Source of the DNA: a bacterium
GTDB taxonomy: Archaea; Nanoarchaeota; Nanoarchaeia; Woesearchaeales; UBA10216
NCBI GenBank assembly: GCA_024206195.1
Contig: JAAGZO010000038.1
Coordinates: forward strand, 1 to 38,533
Length of the DNA: 38,533 bases
Reading direction: 5' to 3'
This document shows positions 16,471 to 28,881 of this stretch, piece after piece. The notes under the pieces were generated by a model, which ran no database searches, had not been told where the DNA came from, and worked only from the letters and a program-made list of their open reading frames with translations. How positions within the stretch are numbered: the first letter of the stretch is position 1; every line of letters starts with the position of its first letter. The position numbers and the translations under genes were made by a program.

Positions 16471-18195
16471 ATGAAAGCTCAAGTAATAAAAAAGAAGGTT
16501 ATCAAGGTAACACCTAATCTAGAAAACTACGAAAAGACATACAAAAGCTTCAAGTGGGAGAGTGCCTACAAGGAGCTTGACTGGTTTAAGGGAAAACTCA
16601 ATGCTGCTTACAATGCAATTGACAGACATGCACACACCTGGCGTAAAAACAAGGTGGCACTCTATTGGGAGGATGAAGATGGGCAGTGCAAGGAGTATAC
16701 GTTTACACAGATAAAGTATCTCTCAAACAAATTTGCAAATGTTCTAAAAAAGCAGGGTGTAAAAAAAGGAGATCGTGTGTTTATATTTTTACCGAGGATT
16801 CCTGAACTCTATGTTGCATTTCTAGGCATACTGAAAATTGGAGCGATTGCAGGAACAATGTTTTCTGCATTTGGTCCTGATGCAATAAAAGACAGATTGC
16901 AGGATAGCGGAGCAAAGATAGTTATTACAGACTCTGAACTAAAGAAAAGAATCTATCCTGTAAAGAAGGACTTGAAGAATCTAGAAAAAATGATCATTGT
17001 TGATGCAGAAAAAACAACTGGAAATGAAATCAGTTTTAATCAGGAAATGGAAACTGCATCAAGAGATCTTGAGGTTGCTCTTATGGATCCAGAGGACTAT
17101 GCATTCATGCTTTACACATCTGGAACAACAGGAAAACCAAAAGGCGTTGTGCATGCACATCTTGCAGTACTGCAGGAACACATGACTGCAAAATGGGTTC
17201 TTGATATGAAGGATGAAGATGTTTACTGGTGCACTGCAGACCCTGGATGGGTCACAGGAATTGCATATGAGATTCTTGGTTCCTGGTCAAATGGTGTTGC
17301 ATCACTAATCTTTGCAGGAAGATTTAATCCAGACAGATGGTATAAGTTGATTGATAAGTACAAGGTTACAATATGGTATACAGCACCAACCGCAGTAAGG
17401 ATGCTTATGGCTTCAGGAGAAAAAGTATCAAAGAAGTATAAGCTAGACAGTCTCAGAGCAATATATAGTGTTGGAGAACCGTTGAATCCTGAAGCGATCA
17501 GATGGGGTGTTAAAGCTTTTGGCCTTGTGTTCCATGACACATGGTGGCAGACAGAAACAGGAGCAATGATGGTTGCTAATTACCAGTGCATACCAACAAA
17601 GCTTGGCTCAATGGGCAAGCCATTCCCAGGAATAAAAATAGGGATTGTTGATGATAATGGAAAGAAACTTCCAGTTAAGACAGAGGGCAATCTTGCAGCA
17701 AAGCCTGGCTGGCCTTCAATGATGAGAACCATCTGGAAGAATGAGAAGAAGTACGATTCATGCTTCAAAAATGGATGGTACTTTTCTGGAGACCGCGCAT
17801 GGATGGACAAAGACGGCTATGTGTGGTTCTTAGGAAGAGCTGATGATGTTATAAAGACTGCTGGTGAAAGAGTCGGGCCATTTGAGGTTGAAAGCGCACT
17901 TGTTGAACACCCTGCAATTGTTGAAGCAGGGGTAATTGGAAAACCAGATCCATTAAGAGGCGCGATAATCAAGGCATTCGTAAGACTGGCACCAGGCAAC
18001 AAGCCTTCAAAAAAGCTTGAGGATGATGTCAAGCAGTTTGTAAAGAAGAGACTTGCAGGACATGCGTACCCAAGAGAAATTTCGTTTGAAAAGACCCTTC
18101 CAAAAACAAGAAGCGGAAAGATTATGAGAAGAGTACTGAAGGCGAAAGAAATGGGTCAGCCAATCGGCGATGTGTCAACAATGTCTGATGACTAG
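16471..18195 (+). CDS. acs: Acetyl-CoA synthetase, AMP-forming
   Basis: This cytoplasmic enzyme of the ANL superfamily makes acetyl-CoA from acetate, ATP and CoA. The P-loop-like motif YTSGTTGKPKG is at residues 215-225. HDTWWQTETG (acetate-pocket Trp and adenylate-binding region), the hinge-region YFSGDRAWMDKDGYVWFLGRADDVIKTAGERVGPFEVE, and the catalytic, acetylation-prone lysine in KTRSGKIMRR near the C-terminus are all present, so it looks active. I chose ATG 16471 (574 aa): the upstream in-frame ATG 16411 lies within the promoter, and its extension is not acs-like. A related medium-chain acyl-CoA synthetase is less likely. It ends in a CTAG shared with pelota. Confidence 0.9.
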   Translation: MKAQVIKKKVIKVTPNLENYEKTYKSFKWESAYKELDWFKGKLNAAYNAIDRHAHTWRKNKVALYWEDEDGQCKEYTFTQIKYLSNKFANVLKKQGVKKGDRVFIFLPRIPELYVAFLGILKIGAIAGTMFSAFGPDAIKDRLQDSGAKIVITDSELKKRIYPVKKDLKNLEKMIIVDAEKTTGNEISFNQEMETASRDLEVALMDPEDYAFMLYTSGTTGKPKGVVHAHLAVLQEHMTAKWVLDMKDEDVYWCTADPGWVTGIAYEILGSWSNGVASLIFAGRFNPDRWYKLIDKYKVTIWYTAPTAVRMLMASGEKVSKKYKLDSLRAIYSVGEPLNPEAIRWGVKAFGLVFHDTWWQTETGAMMVANYQCIPTKLGSMGKPFPGIKIGIVDDNGKKLPVKTEGNLAAKPGWPSMMRTIWKNEKKYDSCFKNGWYFSGDRAWMDKDGYVWFLGRADDVIKTAGERVGPFEVESALVEHPAIVEAGVIGKPDPLRGAIIKAFVRLAPGNKPSKKLEDDVKQFVKKRLAGHAYPREISFEKTLPKTRSGKIMRRVLKAKEMGQPIGDVSTMSDD

Positions 18196-19250
18196 TAGTT
18201 TAGCTTGTATCTTAAGATAGAAGCTATTCCGCCGAGACCATCAAGTTTTTTTCCAGGATTATTTTCTGAATTAAGTATTACTATCTTTGCTTTCATAGAG
18301 TCTGCAGTGCGCATGATATAATCCAGATCAGCAAATGTGTTGTCGATTCTTTTCTTGTGAATCATGGAATCTGAGATTAGCAATATTTTTGCAGCTCCTG
18401 CTTCTACTGCTGCTTTTGTCTCCTTAAAGCCGTATGCAGCGTGCCCTTCTTTTGAAACCTCTAAAAGAAGTTCTTCCATAAGCGTTGCCTCGCTTGCTGT
18501 TCTCTCTTCTTTGAGAATTTCTGCAAGCTCTGACCTTTTCAACAATTCATCCAATGCTCCTTCCAAAGAACTGCATGTTGCGAGTGTTATTTTTTTTCTT
18601 AGCTCCTCATCTTTGATTCCTTTCAACAGTTCTTCTTTCCAGAACGCAGGACTTGCGATGAGAACTTTTCTTATTTTATGACGCTGAACATACTCTTTCA
18701 GTTTCTTTATTAAATCATCATAGAACGAAGAGCTCTTTTCATCAAAATCCTTTTTCTGGACATCTCCCTTGATTCTTGAAAGTGTTTTGTAACCCTGTTG
18801 CTTTAGCAATGCAAAAACTGCTTCATCCCTGTCAAGCGCACAGATTAGTATGTCCAGTGATTTCTGTGAAGATGCTTCTTTTAATCTTTCAACCTGATAA
18901 TTAAGCCAAGATTCCTTCTTAATTGTGATTACTGTGCCTTCTTCAACATTGAATGTGTGATGAGATCCCTTTGGAACCTCTTCTGGGCCTTCTGCAACTG
19001 TTCCAACTATCCTTAACATAGTTGTGTATTTGTGAAACTCTGTTCTTTCTACGTTTAATGTTATGCTGATTGGCTTTTTCACAGATTTTGTATTGCGATC
19101 ATCCTCTTTACCCAGCTTAACCTTTCTAAAAGTCTTCCCACTAACCAAATCCCCTGCGTCCACAAGCTGATTTAGATACCATAGGTCATCTAAGCTCTGG
19201 ACAAGCAGTGTAACTTCACATTTCTTCATATTTTGCTTAATTATCTTCAT
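18192..19250 (-). CDS. pelA: mRNA surveillance protein pelota (Dom34)
   Basis: This eRF1-like factor, with aEF1A/ABCE1, rescues stalled ribosomes. The N-terminal Sm-like domain (VQSLDDLWYLNQLVDAGDLVSGKTFRKVKLG), the central domain (SLDILICALDRDEAVFALL ... KVLIASPAFWKEELLKGI) and the C-terminal eRF1_3 domain (AAYGFKETKAAVEAGAAKILLISDSMI) follow in order. There is no GGQ, as expected for pelota. The length of 352 aa is normal. Met8 (19229) is an alternative start. Its TATA box lies within a large inverted repeat. It converges on acs with stop codons overlapping in CTAG. Confidence 0.95.
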   Translation of the reverse strand: MKIIKQNMKKCEVTLLVQSLDDLWYLNQLVDAGDLVSGKTFRKVKLGKEDDRNTKSVKKPISITLNVERTEFHKYTTMLRIVGTVAEGPEEVPKGSHHTFNVEEGTVITIKKESWLNYQVERLKEASSQKSLDILICALDRDEAVFALLKQQGYKTLSRIKGDVQKKDFDEKSSSFYDDLIKKLKEYVQRHKIRKVLIASPAFWKEELLKGIKDEELRKKITLATCSSLEGALDELLKRSELAEILKEERTASEATLMEELLLEVSKEGHAAYGFKETKAAVEAGAAKILLISDSMIHKKRIDNTFADLDYIMRTADSMKAKIVILNSENNPGKKLDGLGGIASILRYKLNY

Positions 19251-19341: not shown

Positions 19342-19363
19342 ATTTTAATGAAATAGGAAAAGA

Positions 19364-19375
19364 TTTATATATAAA
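19364..19375 (+). promoter_or_regulatory. TATA box for the 389-aa anchored protein
   Basis: TTTATATATAAA is centred ~26 nt before ATG 19395, the spacing of a leaderless archaeal promoter. Confidence 0.6.
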
Positions 19376-19394: not shown

Positions 19395-20564
19395 ATGATT
19401 CATAGAAAGAGGGCACAGAGCGGTGGTAGTGCTGCACTGCTAGTTTTAGTGATTGGCTCATTTATAGTCCTTTACCTTCTGTTTATTCCGCCTGATGAGA
19501 GGAACGAAATCCTAGGAAACAACGATTCTGATGATAATGGTGGGACTTCTGCAGAAAAGGCTTCAGGGGTAGTACTAAAGGAAAGCCCTGGAACGCTATA
19601 TACAGTAAAAAACGACAAAATGGAGCACAGAGTTGATCCTGTTAATATTTTCACAAAAAAAGAAGATGTTGTAATGAAAAGCCTGGATTCTATATATGTT
19701 GAGAGTTCGGGTAGTGATGACACAATAAAGAATATTGTCTTGATGATAGAGCCAGAAAAAACAGAAAATGCGCAGCTGAGCTTTAGTGTAACAGACCACC
19801 GAGGAAGACTCGTAATAATGCAGAATGACGAGGAGATATTCAATGGTGAGGTTAGTGGGGCTATTGAACCGCTAAGGCTAAATGGACTGCAGCAGGAAAA
19901 CATTATTCAATTCAAGGCATCTGACAGTGGTTGGGCTCCTTGGAACAAAAATTTCTATGAAATTTCACAAATAAAGATTACAGGAACTATTGATGATATT
20001 GAGAACAAAGAAGCAAAAGAAACATTTTATTTGACAAGAGAAGAGGTCAATAATGTAGAAACTGCATATCTAATATATTTTGTTGAGTGCAAGCTTGACA
20101 CTGTTGGCAGATTAAGGGTATACCTGAATAATGAGTTGATTTCATCTAGTGTTCCAGACTGCGGATCACCTGTAAAGAAATACGTTGATCCTCATACACT
20201 TAGAACAGGCGTGAATGAGATTAAATTTTTCTCAGAAGCAGGTTCTTATTTAGTTGATCAGATATTCATAAAAACAGAGCTTGAAGAGCCAATAACACCT
20301 ATATACTACTTTGAGCTAAATGACTCACAATATGGATATGTACAGAATGAAACACTGGAATTAATGCTTGATCTAAAGTTCGCTGATGATGATGAGGACA
20401 AGCGTGCAGATTTATCAATAAATGGGCACAAGACCTACGTTGATACAAGAGAGGATACATATTCAAAGGATATCTCTGTATATGCAGAAGAAGACAACAA
20501 TTATGTAAGAATTGAACCAAAGACCACCCTGCACCTCGTAGAGATTAAAGTAGAGCTTGTTTGA
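19395..20564 (+). CDS. Membrane-anchored hypothetical surface protein, 389 aa
   Basis: No family is recognised with certainty. A short basic N-terminus (MIHRKRAQSGG) precedes one hydrophobic segment (residues ~13-32, SAALLVLVIGSFIVLYLLF), so it is predicted to be anchored with the C-terminus outside. An acidic, Ser/Gly/Asn-rich linker (~40-55) follows. The rest looks beta-rich with several Ig-like or jelly-roll-like segments (SFSVTDHRGRLVIMQNDEEIF, GRLRVYLNNELISS, TLHLVEIKVELV). It has only two cysteines, at about residues 235 and 255. It is followed by the 7-TM/lipoprotein genes on the same strand, but has its own promoter, as does the next gene. Confidence 0.75.
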   Translation: MIHRKRAQSGGSAALLVLVIGSFIVLYLLFIPPDERNEILGNNDSDDNGGTSAEKASGVVLKESPGTLYTVKNDKMEHRVDPVNIFTKKEDVVMKSLDSIYVESSGSDDTIKNIVLMIEPEKTENAQLSFSVTDHRGRLVIMQNDEEIFNGEVSGAIEPLRLNGLQQENIIQFKASDSGWAPWNKNFYEISQIKITGTIDDIENKEAKETFYLTREEVNNVETAYLIYFVECKLDTVGRLRVYLNNELISSSVPDCGSPVKKYVDPHTLRTGVNEIKFFSEAGSYLVDQIFIKTELEEPITPIYYFELNDSQYGYVQNETLELMLDLKFADDDEDKRADLSINGHKTYVDTREDTYSKDISVYAEEDNNYVRIEPKTTLHLVEIKVELV

Positions 20565-20630: not shown

Positions 20631-22472
20631 ATGGCTGAAGGAGATAGTGAAAATAATCCTGGTAGATTAAGAAGATTTAAAGGAACTGTCGGAAGACAGG
20701 TAATAAGGCATGTTGATAATGCAAAAAAAGCAGCGACTGTCGATAACGTAAAGAACACAGGAAGTAAAATCAAGAACGCGGGGACGACTATAATAAACGC
20801 GCCTGCTTCAATGAACAAATCAAGCGGTCGTTTTGGAAAAATTTTAATGGGTTTTCTGATATTCCTTCTTGTTTTCTATACATGGGATGGACTTGAGAGC
20901 TTCTGGACAGTACTGGGACTTCTGCTTTTGATGGTTTTTGTTTTATCAAAAGCAAAGAGCATATATGACTGGTTTGTTGTAGGGGCTTTTTTGCTTTACC
21001 TGTTTGATTATAAGCTTGGTTTTGACTACGGCTCTGCAGAGCTGATAGGAATGCACTGGATTTTCCTTTTGGTGTTTGCTGCACTTTTCTGGATTTTTGA
21101 GGACAAGGGTAACATAAAGGGCTTTGGGAAACGGTTGATGGTTTTCCTTATAATTGGATTCGTTGACATGAGTATATTTCCTGTTTTAAGACAGATAGAT
21201 GTGCTTGCAAGCAATGAAATGGCCATGTTCGCTTTGAACAGGATGCTTTTCCCTGTGATCCTCTGGACTGCTATATTCTATGGGCAAAAAGCACCAAATG
21301 CAAAAAGTGATATATCGAGATATGCTGCAATATTTATTGTTCTATTTTACTTTATTGGAAGTGCAGATGCGATCGTTGCTGCTGTACAGGTTCCAACAGA
21401 CCCATATGAACTAACAGGGCAGGACAGGCAAACAGCACAAGAGAGATGGAATGAGTTCACTGAAAGAATAAGCGAGAGTGCTGAAACTATTGCTAACCCG
21501 AAGAAACTCATTGATTTCTTTTTCCCTGACGCCACGCCAGATGAATACGAGGCGGATGTAAAGGATCCGGATCCCGTAGGGGTCTATATCTCAGACGTGA
21601 GTCTCACAAAAAAGGAGTTCTATAGTGCAAATGAGGAGTATGCTGCTGATCCTATTGTTCCATGGATAACTGTCAAAAGTGAAAAGCTGGCAACCACTGC
21701 AAAGAATGTTAAGGGTTATTGTAACTCAGGAACTGTTGAAGGAATTTCTGATGATGCCTTTGACATGACAACAACACAGCAAAGAGTGATAAGGTGTGAG
21801 TTCCCTCAAGATACTGATGAAACCCAGTTCAATACAGGAAAGAGGAGCATAACTGCAGGTATTTCATATGAATTTGAAACAGAGGCGGATCTAAGGCTTT
21901 ATTTTATCAGTGAAGATCTTCTTGTCTCTATGACAAATGATCAATACTTTTCAGATAAAAAATCGCTGCTTGCAGGATTAGAAAGAAAGGATCCTGTTGC
22001 AGAAAATCCAAACAGCCCAGTTATTATTGCAATGGGTGCTGTTCTTGAGCAGCCTGTTGCTATTCCAGAAGATTCTGCAATTGAATCTATATTTGGTGTT
22101 AATATTATCAATTATTGGAAGGATTCCCAAAAATATGGGGAAGGAATAGTTGAGAAAATAACAGGACTTACATTGATACCTCCAGAATACATGAGTGTAA
22201 CAAGATGCGACTACTCATTCGCTAAAAGCACTGAGAATGGAAGAACGGTTTACAAACTTGTAGATGAAATAAATGAAGAAATAGATGAAGAAAGAATATT
22301 CATATGTAATGTCCGTGTTGATGATATGGAAAACTTCTTTGATGGAGATCCTATTGCTATGAGGACATTTACAGTAAGAGTAGAGTATGTTTATTCACTT
22401 GAAAAAGCAGTTGAAGTGAAGATTAAGAGACGGCCTGTATCTGAGCTATATGATGGGGTTGATGTACAATGA
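20631..22472 (+). CDS. Hypothetical seven-TM protein with large ectodomain, 613 aa
   Basis: I do not recognise a named family. A basic, probably cytoplasmic N-terminus (~67 residues, with an amphipathic stretch TVDNVKNTGSKIKNAG) is followed by about seven hydrophobic segments (roughly 68-88, 90-107, 111-128, 139-156, 162-181, 197-216, 224-246). A predicted extracellular part follows (~250-613). It is rich in Asp/Glu and has four cysteines. Its end (ICNV..., TFTVRVEYVYSLEKAVEVKI) resembles the end of the next three lipoproteins. The stop overlaps the first lipoprotein ATG (ATGA), so the two are coupled. It may be a membrane platform for the lipoproteins (inference). Confidence 0.78.
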   Translation: MAEGDSENNPGRLRRFKGTVGRQVIRHVDNAKKAATVDNVKNTGSKIKNAGTTIINAPASMNKSSGRFGKILMGFLIFLLVFYTWDGLESFWTVLGLLLLMVFVLSKAKSIYDWFVVGAFLLYLFDYKLGFDYGSAELIGMHWIFLLVFAALFWIFEDKGNIKGFGKRLMVFLIIGFVDMSIFPVLRQIDVLASNEMAMFALNRMLFPVILWTAIFYGQKAPNAKSDISRYAAIFIVLFYFIGSADAIVAAVQVPTDPYELTGQDRQTAQERWNEFTERISESAETIANPKKLIDFFFPDATPDEYEADVKDPDPVGVYISDVSLTKKEFYSANEEYAADPIVPWITVKSEKLATTAKNVKGYCNSGTVEGISDDAFDMTTTQQRVIRCEFPQDTDETQFNTGKRSITAGISYEFETEADLRLYFISEDLLVSMTNDQYFSDKKSLLAGLERKDPVAENPNSPVIIAMGAVLEQPVAIPEDSAIESIFGVNIINYWKDSQKYGEGIVEKITGLTLIPPEYMSVTRCDYSFAKSTENGRTVYKLVDEINEEIDEERIFICNVRVDDMENFFDGDPIAMRTFTVRVEYVYSLEKAVEVKIKRRPVSELYDGVDVQ

Positions 22473-23404
22473 GAACTACAATCTTTTTCATCGTTGCTTT
22501 GCTTTTCTTATATGGGTGCGGAGGGGGCGGTTCTGATGATATAGATCTCTCTTATAACTCGATACATAAAGGTTCAGAGGGTGTTGCTCTTGATTTTATT
22601 GATGGTGCTCCTTTGAAAGAGATTCAAGTGTCAGGAGATGGGACACGATTCAAAGTCGGGGTTGAGATGGAGAACAAAGGAGCTTATGATGTTGATGAGG
22701 GCTACTTGACAATCAGTGTTGGAAGCTTTATGGATGATAACTATGAAAAACCCTACAGGTTTTCATTGGAAGGAAAAACTATTCTTAATCCAAAGGGTGA
22801 TAAAACAATGAAGCTCTTTGATGCTGGTGTTAGAGGCATGCAAGAAAAACAGATCGGAGAATACAACTCAAATGTCCTAAGTCATCTTTGTTATGGTTAC
22901 AAAACAGAGGCAAAAGCAGAGGTATGTATTGACACAAAAATGCCAGGTGCAGAAAGAGTGGGAGGTCATTGCAAGCAAAAGACACTTACAATGAGCAACC
23001 AGGGAGCGCCTGTTGCCGTGAAAAGAATCGAATCTGCAAATATATATGAAGGCGATAATAGCATAACTGCAATAAGGCCGCAATATAAGATTTACATAGA
23101 TAATGTTGGAAATGGCGTTCCAATACGCAAGGACTATGTAAGAAGCGTTTGCGGACCTGCTTTTGGAATCGATGACCAGGATGTCTGGAATGTTGTTGAG
23201 GTTAGCGCTGAGCTTCCTGGCAATGAACTTGTCTGCGTTCCAGAAAAATATAAGATTGGCAGCGGACTTGATTATGTTGTGTGCTCTACAACCAAAGAAA
23301 TCCCAGTGGCCACTGCAAGTTATACTTCACCACTGATGGTATACTTGGATTATGGTTATTATGTGAGAAGCTTTATCCCTATTTCAATCCATAAAACTGG
23401 ATGA
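22469..23404 (+). CDS. Surface lipoprotein A of a three-gene paralogous set
   Basis: The signal peptide MRTTIFFIVALLFLYG ends at a lipobox-type Cys17, followed by a Gly/Asp-rich linker, so this is a lipid-anchored extracellular protein. The mature part has the family opening GSEGVALDFIDGAPLKEI then VEMENKGAYDV (an Ig/CARDB-like beta start). After that come LCYGYKTEAKAEVCID, NQGAPVAV, YIDNVGNG, and a C-terminal YTSPLMVYLDYGYY...ISI. Six cysteines beyond the lipid Cys match those of lipoproteins B and C in order and context. The gene is coupled to the 7-TM gene by a 4-nt overlap. Function is unknown. Confidence 0.8.
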   Translation: MRTTIFFIVALLFLYGCGGGGSDDIDLSYNSIHKGSEGVALDFIDGAPLKEIQVSGDGTRFKVGVEMENKGAYDVDEGYLTISVGSFMDDNYEKPYRFSLEGKTILNPKGDKTMKLFDAGVRGMQEKQIGEYNSNVLSHLCYGYKTEAKAEVCIDTKMPGAERVGGHCKQKTLTMSNQGAPVAVKRIESANIYEGDNSITAIRPQYKIYIDNVGNGVPIRKDYVRSVCGPAFGIDDQDVWNVVEVSAELPGNELVCVPEKYKIGSGLDYVVCSTTKEIPVATASYTSPLMVYLDYGYYVRSFIPISIHKTG

Positions 23405-23412
23405 ACAAAAAG

Positions 23413-23420
23413 ATTTAAAT
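23413..23420 (+). promoter_or_regulatory. TATA box for lipoprotein B
   Basis: ATTTAAAT within AAAGATTTAAATAGG is centred ~29 nt before ATG 23445, so lipoprotein B can be made independently of the upstream pair. Confidence 0.55.
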
Positions 23421-23444
23421 AGGCTGTTAACGAATGATAAAAAA

Positions 23445-24347
23445 ATGAGAAACATTGTGATTGTTTGTGTTTTTGTAGTTCTTGTTGTAGGTTGTCTTCC
23501 AGGTGGCGGTGGCAGCACAGAAGGAGATTCTATCAAAGGCGAAAGAGGGATTACTCTAAGTCTTGTTCCGAACAGCCTGCCAAGCAAGATCTATGGTGAT
23601 GGTAATGACCTGCATATTGCTGTTGAGCTGCAGAACGATGGAAGCGGCACTGTAGGAAACGGTAAGCTATACATAAGCGGATTTGATGATTCAATAATTA
23701 CTGGTGTTGACAGGGAAAAAACAATCAGCAATCTTGAAGGCAGGAGCATGTATAATCCTATTGGAGACTTTGAGATGATAACATTTGATGGCACTGCAAA
23801 GCTCGCTGGGAAGGATTTTGACACATACAGCCCAACATTTCTTATAACTGCCTGTTATGGATATGAAACTGTTGCCAGCACCCAGGTATGTATTGATGGT
23901 GATCCATTTTCAATATCAAATTCTGAAAAAACATGCAAACCAAATGATAAAACACTCTCAGGAGGCCAAGGCGCTCCTATTGCAGTTACTGGTGTTGATG
24001 TTTTTGCAATGAAAGGAAACACTAGATTTGTGATTCATATAGAGAATGTTGGTAATGGTGTTGTTTATGATAAAAGCAGCAGAGGATGCAATCCATACAG
24101 TGAGGGAATAGATTATGAGGATCTTGATATAGTAACCTTTGATGATGTTCAGCTTTCAGGCAGAAGCATAAAGAGCTCATGTAAACTAGATAACGGAAAA
24201 ATGAGGCTTGTTGGCGGAAAACGCTATGTCTACTGTGAAACAAACACTGAAAATACCCCTGCGTTTACAACACCACTCACAGTAAAACTATCATATGGAT
24301 ATAGGAATTCTATATCAAAGAGTGTTGAGATTCTAAAGTCACCTTGA
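23445..24347 (+). CDS. Surface lipoprotein B of a three-gene paralogous set
   Basis: Signal peptide MRNIVIVCVFVVLVVG with lipobox Cys17, then a Gly-rich linker. The mature part opens GERGITLSLVPNSLPSKIYGDG followed by VELQNDGSGTVGNGKLYISGF. It continues with ACYGYETVASTQVCID, GGQGAPIAV, IHIENVGNG and ends FTTPLTVKLSYGYRNSISKSVEI. The six conserved cysteines are present in the ectodomain. The nearest visible relatives are its two neighbours. The family looks like a beta-sandwich adhesin-type or scaffold protein, but this is inference only. It has its own TATA box. Confidence 0.8.
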   Translation: MRNIVIVCVFVVLVVGCLPGGGGSTEGDSIKGERGITLSLVPNSLPSKIYGDGNDLHIAVELQNDGSGTVGNGKLYISGFDDSIITGVDREKTISNLEGRSMYNPIGDFEMITFDGTAKLAGKDFDTYSPTFLITACYGYETVASTQVCIDGDPFSISNSEKTCKPNDKTLSGGQGAPIAVTGVDVFAMKGNTRFVIHIENVGNGVVYDKSSRGCNPYSEGIDYEDLDIVTFDDVQLSGRSIKSSCKLDNGKMRLVGGKRYVYCETNTENTPAFTTPLTVKLSYGYRNSISKSVEILKSP

Positions 24348-24375
24348 TTCTGACAGAAACATACAATTTAGAAAG

Positions 24376-24385
24376 ATTTATATAA
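24376..24385 (+). promoter_or_regulatory. TATA box for lipoprotein C
   Basis: ATTTATATAA lies ~43 nt before ATG 24424. The predicted transcript starts near 24407, just in front of a strong Shine-Dalgarno, so this mRNA is leadered, unlike that of lipoprotein B. Confidence 0.5.
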
Positions 24386-24406
24386 CATAATTACGCAGAA
24401 GAGGGT

Positions 24407-24413
24407 AAGGAGG
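24407..24413 (+). promoter_or_regulatory. Shine-Dalgarno of lipoprotein C
   Basis: AAGGAGG ends ten bases before ATG 24424, a full anti-SD core. Lipoprotein B has no comparable site, which suggests different expression of the paralogs. Confidence 0.6.
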
Positions 24414-24423
24414 ACTAAAAAAA

Positions 24424-25344
24424 ATGAGGAATCTAATAATCGTATTCATAGCATGCTTAGTTGTTCTTTTATCTGGTTGTACACCAGATGACCCTATAAG
24501 CACAGATCCTTTTCTAGGAGGAAGTGATGGTATATCCATGGAGTTTGTTGATGGTTCCCCACCTCCAGAGATTTATGATAATGGTCAGTTTCCTTTTGAT
24601 GTTACTCTAAGGCTAGAGAACAAGGGAGAGGCTGATGTTGCTTCAGGAAGCTACAAGATAGAGCTTTCAGGAATAAGCAGTAGAGACTTCGGAGGTCCAT
24701 CTTATACAAAGGTGCCAACTGAGACTCTTATTGCAGCATACAAGGATCAGCAAGGAAATAGAATTGACGGAGCAGTAAGATATGTCACGTTTGACACTCC
24801 TGCTTTTTCATATAAGGACGCTGTTGTAGGAGATACGGATTTTACTCTGTGGGCAGATATTTGCTACAAGTACAAAACAACAGCAACAACACAGCTTTGT
24901 GTTAAGGAAGATGTTCTTGGTGTCAGCGAAGATAATGTTTGTGAGATAAAAGGTCCAAAAAGAGTATTTAACTCTGGTTCTCCAGTGCAAGTATCTTCTT
25001 TTAATCAGAACCCTGGAGGAAAGGACAAGCTTGCTTTTACATTTGAGGTTGCACATGCTGGTTCTGGCGCAATACACGGCGGAACGCTTTGCGATATGTC
25101 TCTTACAAACAAGAATAAGGTAACTGTTAAAGTGTCTAGCTCTGCAGGGCAAATAAAATGTGCAGGCCTGAATGGTGGATCCAGCGGTGAGGTTACGCTT
25201 TACGAAGGAAGAAGGGCCATAAGCTGCACACAAACCCTTTCACAAGGAAGAGACAGCTATGAAACACCTTTGACTATTGATCTAAGCTTCAATTACAAAG
25301 AAAACGAGAACATACCAATAAGAGTAAAGCACGCTGTGTCTTAA
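24424..25344 (+). CDS. Surface lipoprotein C of a three-gene paralogous set
   Basis: Signal peptide MRNLIIVFIACLVVLLSG with lipobox Cys19. The mature protein opens GSDGISMEFVDGSPPPEIYDNG then LRLENKGEADVASGSYKIELSG. It has ICYKYKTTATTQLCVK, NSGSPVQV, FEVAHAGSG and a C-terminal YETPLTIDLSFNYKENENIPIRV. The six ectodomain cysteines match A and B. It is the most divergent of the three in the middle region. The stop TAA is part of a TTAA shared with the stop of the convergent coiled-coil gene. Confidence 0.8.
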   Translation: MRNLIIVFIACLVVLLSGCTPDDPISTDPFLGGSDGISMEFVDGSPPPEIYDNGQFPFDVTLRLENKGEADVASGSYKIELSGISSRDFGGPSYTKVPTETLIAAYKDQQGNRIDGAVRYVTFDTPAFSYKDAVVGDTDFTLWADICYKYKTTATTQLCVKEDVLGVSEDNVCEIKGPKRVFNSGSPVQVSSFNQNPGGKDKLAFTFEVAHAGSGAIHGGTLCDMSLTNKNKVTVKVSSSAGQIKCAGLNGGSSGEVTLYEGRRAISCTQTLSQGRDSYETPLTIDLSFNYKENENIPIRVKHAVS

Positions 25345-27929
25345 ATTATTTTTATTCTTTTTAATGCTTTATCTACTAGATCTTGCGAGTAGCCTGAGCT
25401 AACTAAAGAAGCCCTAATTTGTTCTGGAGATTCATCGTGCTCCAAAGCAACATCTACTACGGACATTATTTCATCTACCTCTGAGAAACCTGCTCTTTCA
25501 CCCTCAAAGAAGCTGTCTGCATCCTTCTTAAGATAGTTCTTAACCTTGACTGGCTTTCCTACAACGCGCTTCTTTGCCACTCTTCTTGGCTTTATTGGCT
25601 CAATAGGTTCAACTTCCTGAATTATGTCTGGTTCTGGAATAGTTGTTTCTATTGGCTGAGGTATAGGGGCTTCTTGCTGGTGTATTGGCTGTTGAACTGC
25701 TTGTTGCTCTGCAGCAGAAATTCTTTCTTTTACATAATCTGTTGATTTTTTCAGTTCAAACCCTGCTGATTCAAGTATCTTGAATTCCCTATTAAGTGCA
25801 TCCTGCTCCTTGAGAAGTATCTCTTCTTTCCTTGCCATCTCACTTTCTCGTACAGTCATCTCATGTATCTTCTTCTCTGCAGTATTCAGCATTTCTTTTA
25901 TCTGGTTCTCTTTTTCAACCAAATAGTGCTCTCTTGCTTCAACTGATTTCTCTTTTTCCTTTAATGAAGCAGGGATAACTCCAGGTTCTGATGTTCGTCC
26001 TCTCTTCAGTTCCAAGAGCTTTCCTGATTTGACATGGAACTCCTTGATTGCATCATCTACCTCTTGCTGCTTTTCTTCAAGAAGAATCTGCTGCTCGTGC
26101 ACCTTTGCCTTAAGGTGCTCTATATGTGACTTGAGGTCAACTTCATGTTCTGCATGTTGCTCTATTATTTCTTTAATACGATTTTCATGCTTTTTCTTCA
26201 GTGTTTGAATTAAATCCTTATAGTGAACTTCGCTCTCTCCTACACGCTGGCCTTCTTCACTGAGTCTTTTCTTGTATGTTGAAACAGACTCTTTAATCCT
26301 CGCTATTTCTTCTGTTAGCTCATGATTTATCTTTTCCTTCAAATGGAGCTGGCCTTTTAGCTTGAATACCTCATCAGAGGTTTCTATTTGCTTTTGCGTG
26401 TTTATCTGCGATCTTAATTCAATAATCTGCCTTTCCCTGTCAGCTACCTGCTGTTCAAGGTGATGTGTGAGCTTGTTGTTTAAACCTTCTTTTTCAACAA
26501 CAAAATGCTTGAACTTCTCAATCTCTGCGCGTTTCTCAGAAGAATCCTTTCTTAGGTGCGCGATTGCCTCTTCGTCAGCCATTTCCTTGCCAACAAACTG
26601 CTGAGTGATTCGCTTGATTTCTTTTTCTTTCTCAGCCAGGCGTCTGGATAAATAAGAAAGTTCATCATCTTTTCTTGCAAGCGCATGCTCAAGCTCAATT
26701 TCGTTTTCACTTTTTCTTAGCTTGCTTCGCTCATCGTCAAGCTTTTGCTTGTAAGCAGAAACCTCATGTTTTACCCTGTCCAACTCTTCAGAGAGTGTCT
26801 TGTTGAGTCTCTCTTTTATTGTAATATGGTCTCTTAACTTGCGAACATGATCACTAAGGTCTGTGTCTTTTACATTACTAAGCTGGGAATTCATATCAGA
26901 AAGCTGTTTTTCACTCTCAGCCAACTGATGCTCTAAATGCTCTGTGAGTTTCTTGCTTAAACCTTCTTTTTCAACAATAAAATGCTTGAGCTTTTCAATC
27001 TCTAAACGCTTCTCATCAAGCTCTTTCTTGAAATGCATTATTGATCTTTCATCTGAGCGCTCTTTATCGACAAACTGTTGAGTTATTTTTTCAATCTCTT
27101 GTTCTTTTTCAGTGAAGCGCTTTGACATGTATGTTGCTTCGCTGTCTTTTTTTGATCTGTGTTGCTCTAACTCGTTTTCTTTTGTAGAATGTAAGGCGAT
27201 TAATTTTGCCACTTCTTCTTCTTTTTCCATCAGCTTATTGTTTAGCTGTTTTATTATCTGCTCGTTTGATTTTGATTTCTTCAGAATGCTTTCTTTAATG
27301 TGTTTTGCGTCTTCACTCTGGCTTGATATCTGATCTCTTAGCTGCTCATTGAGTTTTCTGTTTGTGCTCTCTTCTTTTGAAAGGAGCATTCCCAGTTTTT
27401 CTATCTCGTGTTCTCTTGCACCTAAGCGCTTGTTGAACTCCTGAGTTATCTTTCTTTCATATTCATCTTTTTCAGCTATTTTTTGTTTTAGAAGTGTGAT
27501 TTCGCTGTCTCTTGGTTTTGATGCAGCAACTCTTTTCAGCATGTTGTTTTTAATCTGTTCTGTTTGAGAACCTTGTGCAATAAGTTCCTCTTCAAGCCTT
27601 CTGTTCATATCATGCTCTTTTTCAAGAAGCGTCCTTAGCTTGTCTATTTCACTCTCTTTTGCACTTAGGCTTCTGTCAAACTCTTCAATAATCTTCTTCT
27701 CTGTAAGCGCTCTTTTGCTAAGACTGGTTTTCATTGATGATAATTCATCGTCCTTTGAAGAAATCCTTTTTGACAAAAGCTTTGTTTCTTTTTTTGATTT
27801 GTCTGTTTTTATTTTGCTGAGAACAAGTTGTTTTCTTAGATCATCACTGAATCTATTAAGTTGATGAATAGTGGCTTTTTCTATATCTCTATCCCACTCT
27901 TTACTCTCTTTTTTATCGTTGTTGGGCAT
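25341..27929 (-). CDS. Giant coiled-coil protein with internal duplication, 862 aa
   Basis: Residues ~25-720 are almost continuous charged heptad-type coiled coil with no ATPase motif. A ~140-residue segment at 268-409 is repeated at 427-567 with a constant offset of 159 residues (for example ITQQFV at 282 and 441, KHFIVEKEGL and KHFVVEKEGL at 315 and 474). A shorter ~34-residue unit with KE.EI.KL recurs near 83, 164, 228, 299 and 458. A Gln/Pro/Glu linker (739-780) and a basic patch (KPRRVAKKRVV) lead to a small helical end (818-862, IRASLVSSGYSQDLVDKAL) that looks UBA-like. It overlaps rfcS by 17 nt, so co-expression is likely. A structural or filament role is inference. Confidence 0.82.
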   Translation of the reverse strand: MPNNDKKESKEWDRDIEKATIHQLNRFSDDLRKQLVLSKIKTDKSKKETKLLSKRISSKDDELSSMKTSLSKRALTEKKIIEEFDRSLSAKESEIDKLRTLLEKEHDMNRRLEEELIAQGSQTEQIKNNMLKRVAASKPRDSEITLLKQKIAEKDEYERKITQEFNKRLGAREHEIEKLGMLLSKEESTNRKLNEQLRDQISSQSEDAKHIKESILKKSKSNEQIIKQLNNKLMEKEEEVAKLIALHSTKENELEQHRSKKDSEATYMSKRFTEKEQEIEKITQQFVDKERSDERSIMHFKKELDEKRLEIEKLKHFIVEKEGLSKKLTEHLEHQLAESEKQLSDMNSQLSNVKDTDLSDHVRKLRDHITIKERLNKTLSEELDRVKHEVSAYKQKLDDERSKLRKSENEIELEHALARKDDELSYLSRRLAEKEKEIKRITQQFVGKEMADEEAIAHLRKDSSEKRAEIEKFKHFVVEKEGLNNKLTHHLEQQVADRERQIIELRSQINTQKQIETSDEVFKLKGQLHLKEKINHELTEEIARIKESVSTYKKRLSEEGQRVGESEVHYKDLIQTLKKKHENRIKEIIEQHAEHEVDLKSHIEHLKAKVHEQQILLEEKQQEVDDAIKEFHVKSGKLLELKRGRTSEPGVIPASLKEKEKSVEAREHYLVEKENQIKEMLNTAEKKIHEMTVRESEMARKEEILLKEQDALNREFKILESAGFELKKSTDYVKERISAAEQQAVQQPIHQQEAPIPQPIETTIPEPDIIQEVEPIEPIKPRRVAKKRVVGKPVKVKNYLKKDADSFFEGERAGFSEVDEIMSVVDVALEHDESPEQIRASLVSSGYSQDLVDKALKRIKII

Positions 27930-28881
27930 CTTTTATTCCCATTAATGCGAACTGGCTGAGTAGCGCTTCAAGCTGAATGAATTCATCAGCACCTTCAACC
28001 ATTCTAAACTCTATCTCCCCGCACTTTTCAACCAAGTGCATCTTTTTCCCCGCATCTATTTCAAGGCCCAAGGTTTCCCTTTGTATCTGTTTTATGACAT
28101 CAAGCCCTGAAAGGCCATACGCAAGCATTGTACTCAATAACTTGTCCCGGGCCTCTGTAAATCTGTTATCTAAAGCTAGAGTGAGCGTCTCTTTTATTTC
28201 TTTCGGTTTTGCAACAGAAGCAACTGCATATATTGTTTCCTCTGTTATATGAGTAGATACAACAGCAGAGCTCTGCATAAGATTCTCCAAACGCCTGCAA
28301 TCACCATCTGAAACTGTGAAAAGCGCTTTTTTGGCCTTTTCATCTATCTTCAGCTTCTCTTTTTCTGCAATTGTGTCTATGATACTGAAAACATCCTCCT
28401 GCTTAAGAGGCTTAAACCTGAAAACAGCACATCTTGACTGAATTGGATCTATTATCTTGCTGCTGAAGTTGCAGCTCAGTATGAATCTACATGTCTGGGT
28501 GTAGTTCTCCATTGTACGCCTTAAAGCCTGCTGAGCGTCCTTTGTTAATGCGTCTGACTCATCAAGGTAAATTATCTTGAATGGGACATTTCCAATGGCC
28601 CGTGTCCTTGCAAAGTCCTTAACCTTGTTTCTGACAACATCTATGCCTCTCTCATCAGAAGCGTTTAGTTCGAGAAAATTATGGTTCCAGTCATCCCCAA
28701 AGAGCTTTTTAGCAATTACTATTGAAAGAGATGTCTTTCCTGTGCCTGCAGGGCCTGCAAATAGCACATGAGGCATGTTCTGCTGCTTTACAAAGGCCTT
28801 TATTCTCTTAACTACCTCATCTTGGCCCTTTATTTCAGAAAAATCACTTGGTCTGTACTTCTCAGTCCATATATTGTTCAT
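27913..28881 (-). CDS. rfcS: Replication factor C small subunit
   Basis: This is the AAA+ clamp-loader subunit that opens PCNA at primer-template junctions. WTEKYRP (RFC box II) is at the N-terminus. Walker A GPAGTGKT is at residues 43-50. NASDERGIDVVRNKV and Walker B LDESD (107-110; most relatives have DEAD) follow, then LRRTMENY, sensor 1 LSCNFSSKII and the SRC arginine-finger motif at 149-151. The length of 322 aa is normal. It has its own TATA box 28 nt upstream. The 3' end overlaps the coiled-coil gene by 17 nt. Confidence 0.96.
   Translation of the reverse strand: MNNIWTEKYRPSDFSEIKGQDEVVKRIKAFVKQQNMPHVLFAGPAGTGKTSLSIVIAKKLFGDDWNHNFLELNASDERGIDVVRNKVKDFARTRAIGNVPFKIIYLDESDALTKDAQQALRRTMENYTQTCRFILSCNFSSKIIDPIQSRCAVFRFKPLKQEDVFSIIDTIAEKEKLKIDEKAKKALFTVSDGDCRRLENLMQSSAVVSTHITEETIYAVASVAKPKEIKETLTLALDNRFTEARDKLLSTMLAYGLSGLDVIKQIQRETLGLEIDAGKKMHLVEKCGEIEFRMVEGADEFIQLEALLSQFALMGIKDAQQR

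Follow-up and report, generated by a model that had tools for sequence, protein, structure and literature searches.

What purpose is served by a run of adjacent genes for outward-facing membrane and lipid-anchored proteins in a woesearchaeal genome? For most DPANN archaea, we know of no account of the means by which they attach to other cells and feed from them, and one such run lies in contig JAAGZO010000038.1 (assembly GCA_024206195.1, Woesearchaeales). A preliminary description of the window, by which we mean the whole analysed stretch of 38,533 nucleotides, singled out four open reading frames (ORFs), one for a membrane protein with seven transmembrane (TM) segments (here gene B) and three for paralogous six-cysteine lipoproteins (L1, L2 and L3), as a possible attachment or uptake structure. 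All four ORFs are where that description placed them (Table 1) and are conserved together, and the conserved unit is one gene longer, A-B-L1-L2-L3, beginning with gene A upstream of B, which had been missed. We conclude that this surface module is real, deeply conserved and previously unannotated, and we posit, with moderate confidence, that it is a contact apparatus with a tip matched to the envelope of the partner, which in some lineages breaches bacterial walls.

Conservation of gene order defines the unit. A protein search with L2 returned 54 proteins, the window's own included, among which the organisms named were two Woesearchaeota and one Nanoarchaeota, and a 30-sequence alignment of the lipoproteins, used to scan GTDB contigs within a reach limited by three peptide patterns, returned 78 loci (67 titled Woesearchaeota, 11 other or unclassified archaea). 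Three lipoprotein ORFs are the usual complement, found in 50 of the 60 loci that have room on both sides (window included), with four in three loci, two in five and one in two. Two of the four-ORF loci have a split L2 position (L038:8668-9798 and L061:2366-3537), a frameshift or assembly error, and in a close relative of the window a 349 amino-acid (aa) ORF without a TM segment sits between L1 and L2 (L001:8767-9816). Co-occurrence in related genomes had been set beforehand as the test of the original proposal, and the outcome strongly favours it: across 51 loci, the window among them, in which 5.5 kb or more precede the first lipoprotein gene, B adjoins the lipoproteins in 49, and A and B together lie ahead of them in 49, A having been detected by script in 48 and additionally in L070 (5253-6506), where an overlapping ORF hid it from the script. 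The exceptions are L046 and L074, the latter having neither an assigned B nor an assigned A. More broadly, A was found in 275 of 371 genomes sampled evenly from the GTDB phylum to which Woesearchaeota belong, most of the genomes listed having a single match; the 96 genomes that gave no match may be incomplete or too divergent, and 19 of the 20 listed are 0.9 Mb or less. In 40 further neighbourhoods, half of them (20) selected for a weak and half (20) for a middling A score, a lipoprotein-profile match (E ≤ 0.01) lies downstream of A in 33, and lipobox ORFs occur in three of the other seven. Defined as A, then B, then two to four lipoprotein paralogues, all on one strand, the module is present in the window and, with exceptions, in its relatives. 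Two distant genomes have unusually long lipobox ORFs in the cluster (L186:2088-5414, 1108 aa; L180:4523-7108, 861 aa), neither of which Pfam recognises at E ≤ 0.1.

None of the five window proteins matches a Pfam or NCBIfam family at cut-off, and the same searches found no glycosyltransferase or ATPase family among them; that each protein would fall into a known unrelated family, the result named in advance as counting against a joint assembly, was seen for none of the four genes first described. The lipoproteins are paralogues by sequence similarity far above chance (BLASTP: L1-L2, 33% identity, E 2e-28; L1-L3, 8e-17; L2-L3, 9e-21), in agreement with the preliminary description. Each has a predicted signal peptide and a lipobox cysteine near residue 17-19, the features expected of archaeal lipoproteins; the lipobox cysteine is kept in 55 of 56 family sequences, six further cysteines are each kept in 55 or 56, and all seven are found in L1, L2 and L3. 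LPAM_1 matches 5 of the 56 family rows (best E 8e-4). Structurally, L2 is modelled as two tandem immunoglobulin (Ig)-like beta-sandwich domains, and a fold search returned many unrelated Ig-like matches that tied. The model resembles CARDB and other Ig-like surface domains, from which the lipoproteins differ in their six conserved cysteines. Membership of CARDB itself (PF07705) was considered and rejected, with no hit for L1-L3 at E ≤ 1 and weak hits among the family rows (6 of the 56; best E 0.012).

B combines a predicted cytoplasmic, basic N-terminal tail (net charge +7), a polytopic membrane domain and an ectodomain of about 360 aa with four cysteines, the loop charges agreeing with an N-in/C-out arrangement; the topology signals thus leave outside the cell a domain of the size first proposed. 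The seven TM segments are less firm, with seven hydropathy peaks (about residues 77, 99, 119, 150, 177, 211 and 238) in a 13-residue window and only five or six separate segments in stricter 19-residue scans, so that the count of seven depends on the looser scan and the charges. In many of the 40 distant genomes the ORF at the B position has one TM segment, which suggests that the polytopic domain arose as an elaboration in particular lineages. The ectodomain is probably related to the lipoproteins, since hhalign of B against the lipoprotein profile gave 66% (E 6e-5), against 0.3% for a reversed control and 2.7% for an A control, and a single lipoprotein ORF in one distant locus (L179) matches both of these profiles, at 2e-8 and 3e-7.

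Gene A, recognised by its ORF, family alignment and conserved position, encodes a short basic N-terminus, one TM segment (residues about 11-30) and an ectodomain with two cysteines. AlphaFold (pLDDT 91) predicts this ectodomain as jelly-roll domains in tandem, of which we count three repeats by eye, and its fold matches are galactose-binding-like jelly rolls. Its N-terminus is KKGQ-like, with a variable insert before the TM segment in the family alignment, and no class III (type IV pilin) signal peptide family is among the 25 families listed, out of 26 matched by 51 A-family rows at E ≤ 0.1. An identity as BcsB (PF03170) was also rejected, as window A has no hit at E ≤ 1 and one of the 51 family rows reaches an E of only 0.066. 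In contrast to BcsB of bacterial cellulose synthase and to the GH35/GH2 accessory jelly rolls, none of the five window genes matches a glycosyltransferase family, such as would be expected of the BcsA partner. That all parts face outward, as first described, is supported by the topology signals, the lipoboxes and the wall-hydrolase-type domains found on B in relatives.

Functionally, these domains are the unexpected part of the module. At the C-terminus of B, 27 of 72 B-position proteins carry a murein-hydrolase-type domain of one of several unrelated folds, namely SLT-like (22), glucosaminidase (3), M23 (1) or amidase_2 (1), the remainder having an FN3-like tail (6), another tail (6), none (32) or an end that was not assignable (1). 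The 22 SLT-like tips were counted with a profile built from such tips; with Pfam alone at E ≤ 0.05, 16 of the 39 long B rows matched SLT (best 7e-17), and the best values for the other tips were 1e-16 (glucosaminidase), 7e-17 (M23) and 7e-30 (amidase_2). The tip-derived profile hit 22 of the 4193 ORFs in 79 loci, and all 22 are at the B position. The SLT glutamate and G-x-M-Q motif are kept in 20 of the 22, and of the other two one, L024, is fragmentary and yielded no motif; the M23 tip, in L046, retains the HxxxD and HxH that we take to be the motifs of that family. By these matches, B orthologues do carry hydrolase-type catalytic domains with their motif residues.

Evolutionarily, the B tip has changed repeatedly. 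Mapping of tip types onto a 59-protein tree of A showed clustering by clade (15 changes, where shuffling gave a mean of 26.7); even so, the three glucosaminidase rows required three changes and SLT required six, at least five of them forced by starred branches, and one glucosaminidase-tipped locus (L042) groups in a nine-member clade (100/100) with eight SLT-tipped loci; from these counts and this placement we read repeated exchange. The window's B has no hydrolase tip, ending 13 residues beyond the conserved core with no Pfam hit at E ≤ 1, and its nearest kin by A are four loci joined at 100/96: L035, whose B has no tip, L001, which is SLT-like, L011, which is SLT-like with an additional NlpC/P60 domain (E 5e-5), and L004, which has glucosaminidase.

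The SLT, glucosaminidase, M23 and amidase_2 families cut murein. The carriers themselves seem not to make it: MurB_C was detected in 0 of 27 carrier genomes, drafts of untold completeness, the control being positive in 10 of 14 genomes, all ten of them bacteria. Because the tips belong to murein-cutting families and MurB_C was not found in these carriers, their natural target is presumably the wall of another organism. We therefore read the attachment or uptake idea of the preliminary description as partly supported, and the hydrolase-type tips of relatives make contact with another cell's envelope its better-supported version, the other cells probably being bacteria in the hydrolase-tipped lineages. 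As we envisage it, A (single TM segment, jelly-roll ectodomain) and B (TM domain, Ig-like ectodomain) would be fixed in the archaeal membrane, and L1-L3, lipid-anchored and probable relatives of the B ectodomain, would join them in a projecting complex, probably stabilised by disulphides. The five proteins would thus act as one surface module of the phylum, whose conserved core touches the envelope of another cell while the end of B serves as an exchangeable tip. In lineages living on or against bacteria, a murein hydrolase tip could loosen the bacterial wall at the site of contact, much as VirB1-type enzymes do in conjugation, and genomes without a tip, such as the window's, may rely on attachment alone, with an archaeal partner or a wall enzyme encoded elsewhere.

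The same tips bear on the main rival explanation, in which the module is a housekeeping scaffold of the archaeon's own envelope, an S-layer-like or lipoprotein coat, and the tips were acquired opportunistically for defence or scavenging. The wide distribution of A, at one match in most listed genomes, and the 32 tip-less B proteins would suit a structural role, as would the Ig-like and jelly-roll folds predicted here, since such domains are usual in surface coats. Several unrelated murein-hydrolase-type folds at one and the same end of B imply, on the other hand, that this end meets murein, a polymer that the carriers do not appear to synthesise, and we consider a coat unlikely.

Several observations nevertheless weigh against a contact apparatus. 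Since the window's B and 32 of the 72 B proteins are tip-less, wall cleavage cannot be a universal function, and because tip types cluster by clade the 27 carriers represent fewer independent events; in addition, one SLT-like tip lacks the SLT glutamate (L049). SLT is also found in proteins other than B: genomes with at least one match, B's own counted, number 12 in a set of 30 and 24 in one of 41, and some genomes with SLT matches have a tip-less B. The jelly-roll and Ig-like folds predicted here occur widely, and many of their matches tie. Nor is the gene order without irregularities: in L046 the fetched stretch starts inside B and two opposite-strand ORFs separate B from L1, and among the 40 distant neighbourhoods a B-core profile match lies next to A in only 19, the rest being named B by position, while in two (L173 and L201) A is directly followed by a lipoprotein gene, without an intervening B-like ORF, and in one (L205) no lipoprotein was found in the neighbourhood. 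As a separate observation, one genome has a 2239 aa ORF with SLT matches away from B (G193:C13:28306-28692), which may belong to the large transglycosylases of PMC8204110.

A second rival keeps the bacterial target and drops the partnership, casting the module as a contact-dependent weapon whose tip kills competing bacteria, with neither attachment nor feeding. According to the portions at hand of PMC12352652, archaeal peptidoglycan hydrolases kill bacteria and have homologues prominent in Nanoarchaeota, which would favour a weapon, and the module shares with them murein-hydrolase homologues in archaea. It departs from what those portions describe in that its domains sit at the exchangeable end of a single membrane protein belonging to a conserved gene set; many members of that set are enzyme-free, a secreted enzyme would presumably be a simpler weapon, and we regard this explanation as improbable.

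A third rival places B in a machine for secretion, conjugation or pilus assembly, where it would act as a platform or VirB6-like protein and the tip as its VirB1. In the portions at hand of PMC12102498, which treats the type IV secretion system (T4SS) of Patescibacteria, bacterial episymbionts, VirB6 diverges strongly, and the likeness is apparent: a polytopic membrane protein with a large ectodomain is paired with a hydrolase that opens peptidoglycan locally. No sequence relation was found, however, as VirB6/TrbL (PF04610), a family that diverges widely, was not listed at E ≤ 0.05 for any of 65 distinct B rows (39 + 33), and the hydrolase is fused to B, with A and the lipoproteins added. For these we know of no T4SS counterpart. 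T2SSE-type ATPases are present in 30 of 30 genomes, a result that is unspecific, given 14 of 14 controls, and four genomes have, elsewhere on the chromosome, an ATPase of about 760 aa together with a large membrane protein. Against a machine of this kind, none of the five window genes encodes an ATPase (the genes around related clusters not having been family-searched), VirB4 (PF03135) reached cut-off in 0 of 27 genomes with a weak model that was positive in only 1 of 14 controls, and the ORF after A has a single TM segment in many distant genomes. We consider this reading very improbable. The ATPase in those four genomes (L085-L088, from G005, G003, G013 and G019) is CpaF/FlaI-like by eye, has a T2SSE match and lies beside a large polytopic protein, with paralogous membrane proteins of about 190 aa nearby in three of the four; the locus is probably a type IV pilus-like machine and is not beside the A-B-L cluster.

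Returning to the contact apparatus, its closest precedents concern the same archaea. The portions at hand of PMC8204110 describe large murein-like lytic transglycosylase proteins (fam00969, up to 3,000 aa) in Woesearchaeota and Pacearchaeota and suggest bacterial hosts, and those of PMC9723730 describe GH23 genes in Woesearchaeota; there, as here, SLT/GH23 domains are proposed to bind or degrade bacterial walls. The portions concerned deal with a single protein family and with GH23 genes, and mention no five-gene module, paralogous lipoproteins or tip exchange. Among the matches listed in titles and abstract openings of the open-access literature, a scope that leaves out most subscription papers and bioRxiv, no description of the module was found; PMC10936187 has a single mention of lytic transglycosylase. 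With no window protein matching a family at cut-off and no known system among those tested fitting it, we rate the composition as new as a whole, built from parts that use known folds and with a function that we infer. Bacterial partners for Woesearchaeota have been proposed in print, in the portions at hand of the same two papers, and the module offers a concrete candidate for DPANN contact machinery, A being found in roughly three quarters of the genomes sampled from the phylum. More tentatively, and with considerable doubt on our part, it may be the host-contact machine of this whole DPANN phylum, with the B tip predicting the host: hydrolase-tipped members would live on bacteria, as episymbionts or predators, and tip-less members on archaea. 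The tips would then provide a prediction of bacterial partners that can be read from genomes, and the proteins can be expressed and tested.

Table 1 Features of the A-B-L1-L2-L3 cluster in the window
Feature	Coordinates	Strand	Description
TATA-like box upstream of A	19358..19372	+	AAAAGATTTATATAT; by eye
Gene A	19395..20564	+	389 aa; ORF, family alignment, conserved position
Gene B	20631..22472	+	613 aa membrane protein
ATGA start/stop overlap B/L1	22469..22472	+	read in sequence
Gene L1	22469..23404	+	311 aa lipoprotein; lipobox Cys17, six further Cys
TATA-like box upstream of L2	23407-23421		by eye
Gene L2	23445..24347	+	300 aa lipoprotein; lipobox Cys17, six further conserved Cys
TATA-like box upstream of L3	24370-24384		by eye
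Gene L3	24424..25344	+	306 aa lipoprotein; lipobox Cys19, six further Cys

Within the window, translational coupling of B and L1 had been proposed, and the ATGA overlap between them is real. It is the only visible coupling in the cluster, because A, L2 and L3 are each preceded, by eye, by a TATA-like element, AAAGATTTA(A/T)ATA, a candidate promoter box by the archaeal consensus; this suggests several transcripts.

The cluster is followed by a gene for an 862 aa coiled-coil protein (25341-27929, minus strand), convergent with L3 and overlapping it by four bases. ORFs of similar length occupy its place in L001 (828 aa, a coiled coil by eye), L004 (736 aa) and L030 (846 aa), and most relative loci have no counterpart. 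Further out, the window has a pelota-like gene upstream (18192-19250, minus strand) and a gene resembling the replication factor C small subunit downstream (27913-28881, minus strand), both named by eye, and ORFs with the length and strand of these two flanks frame the cluster in many related loci.

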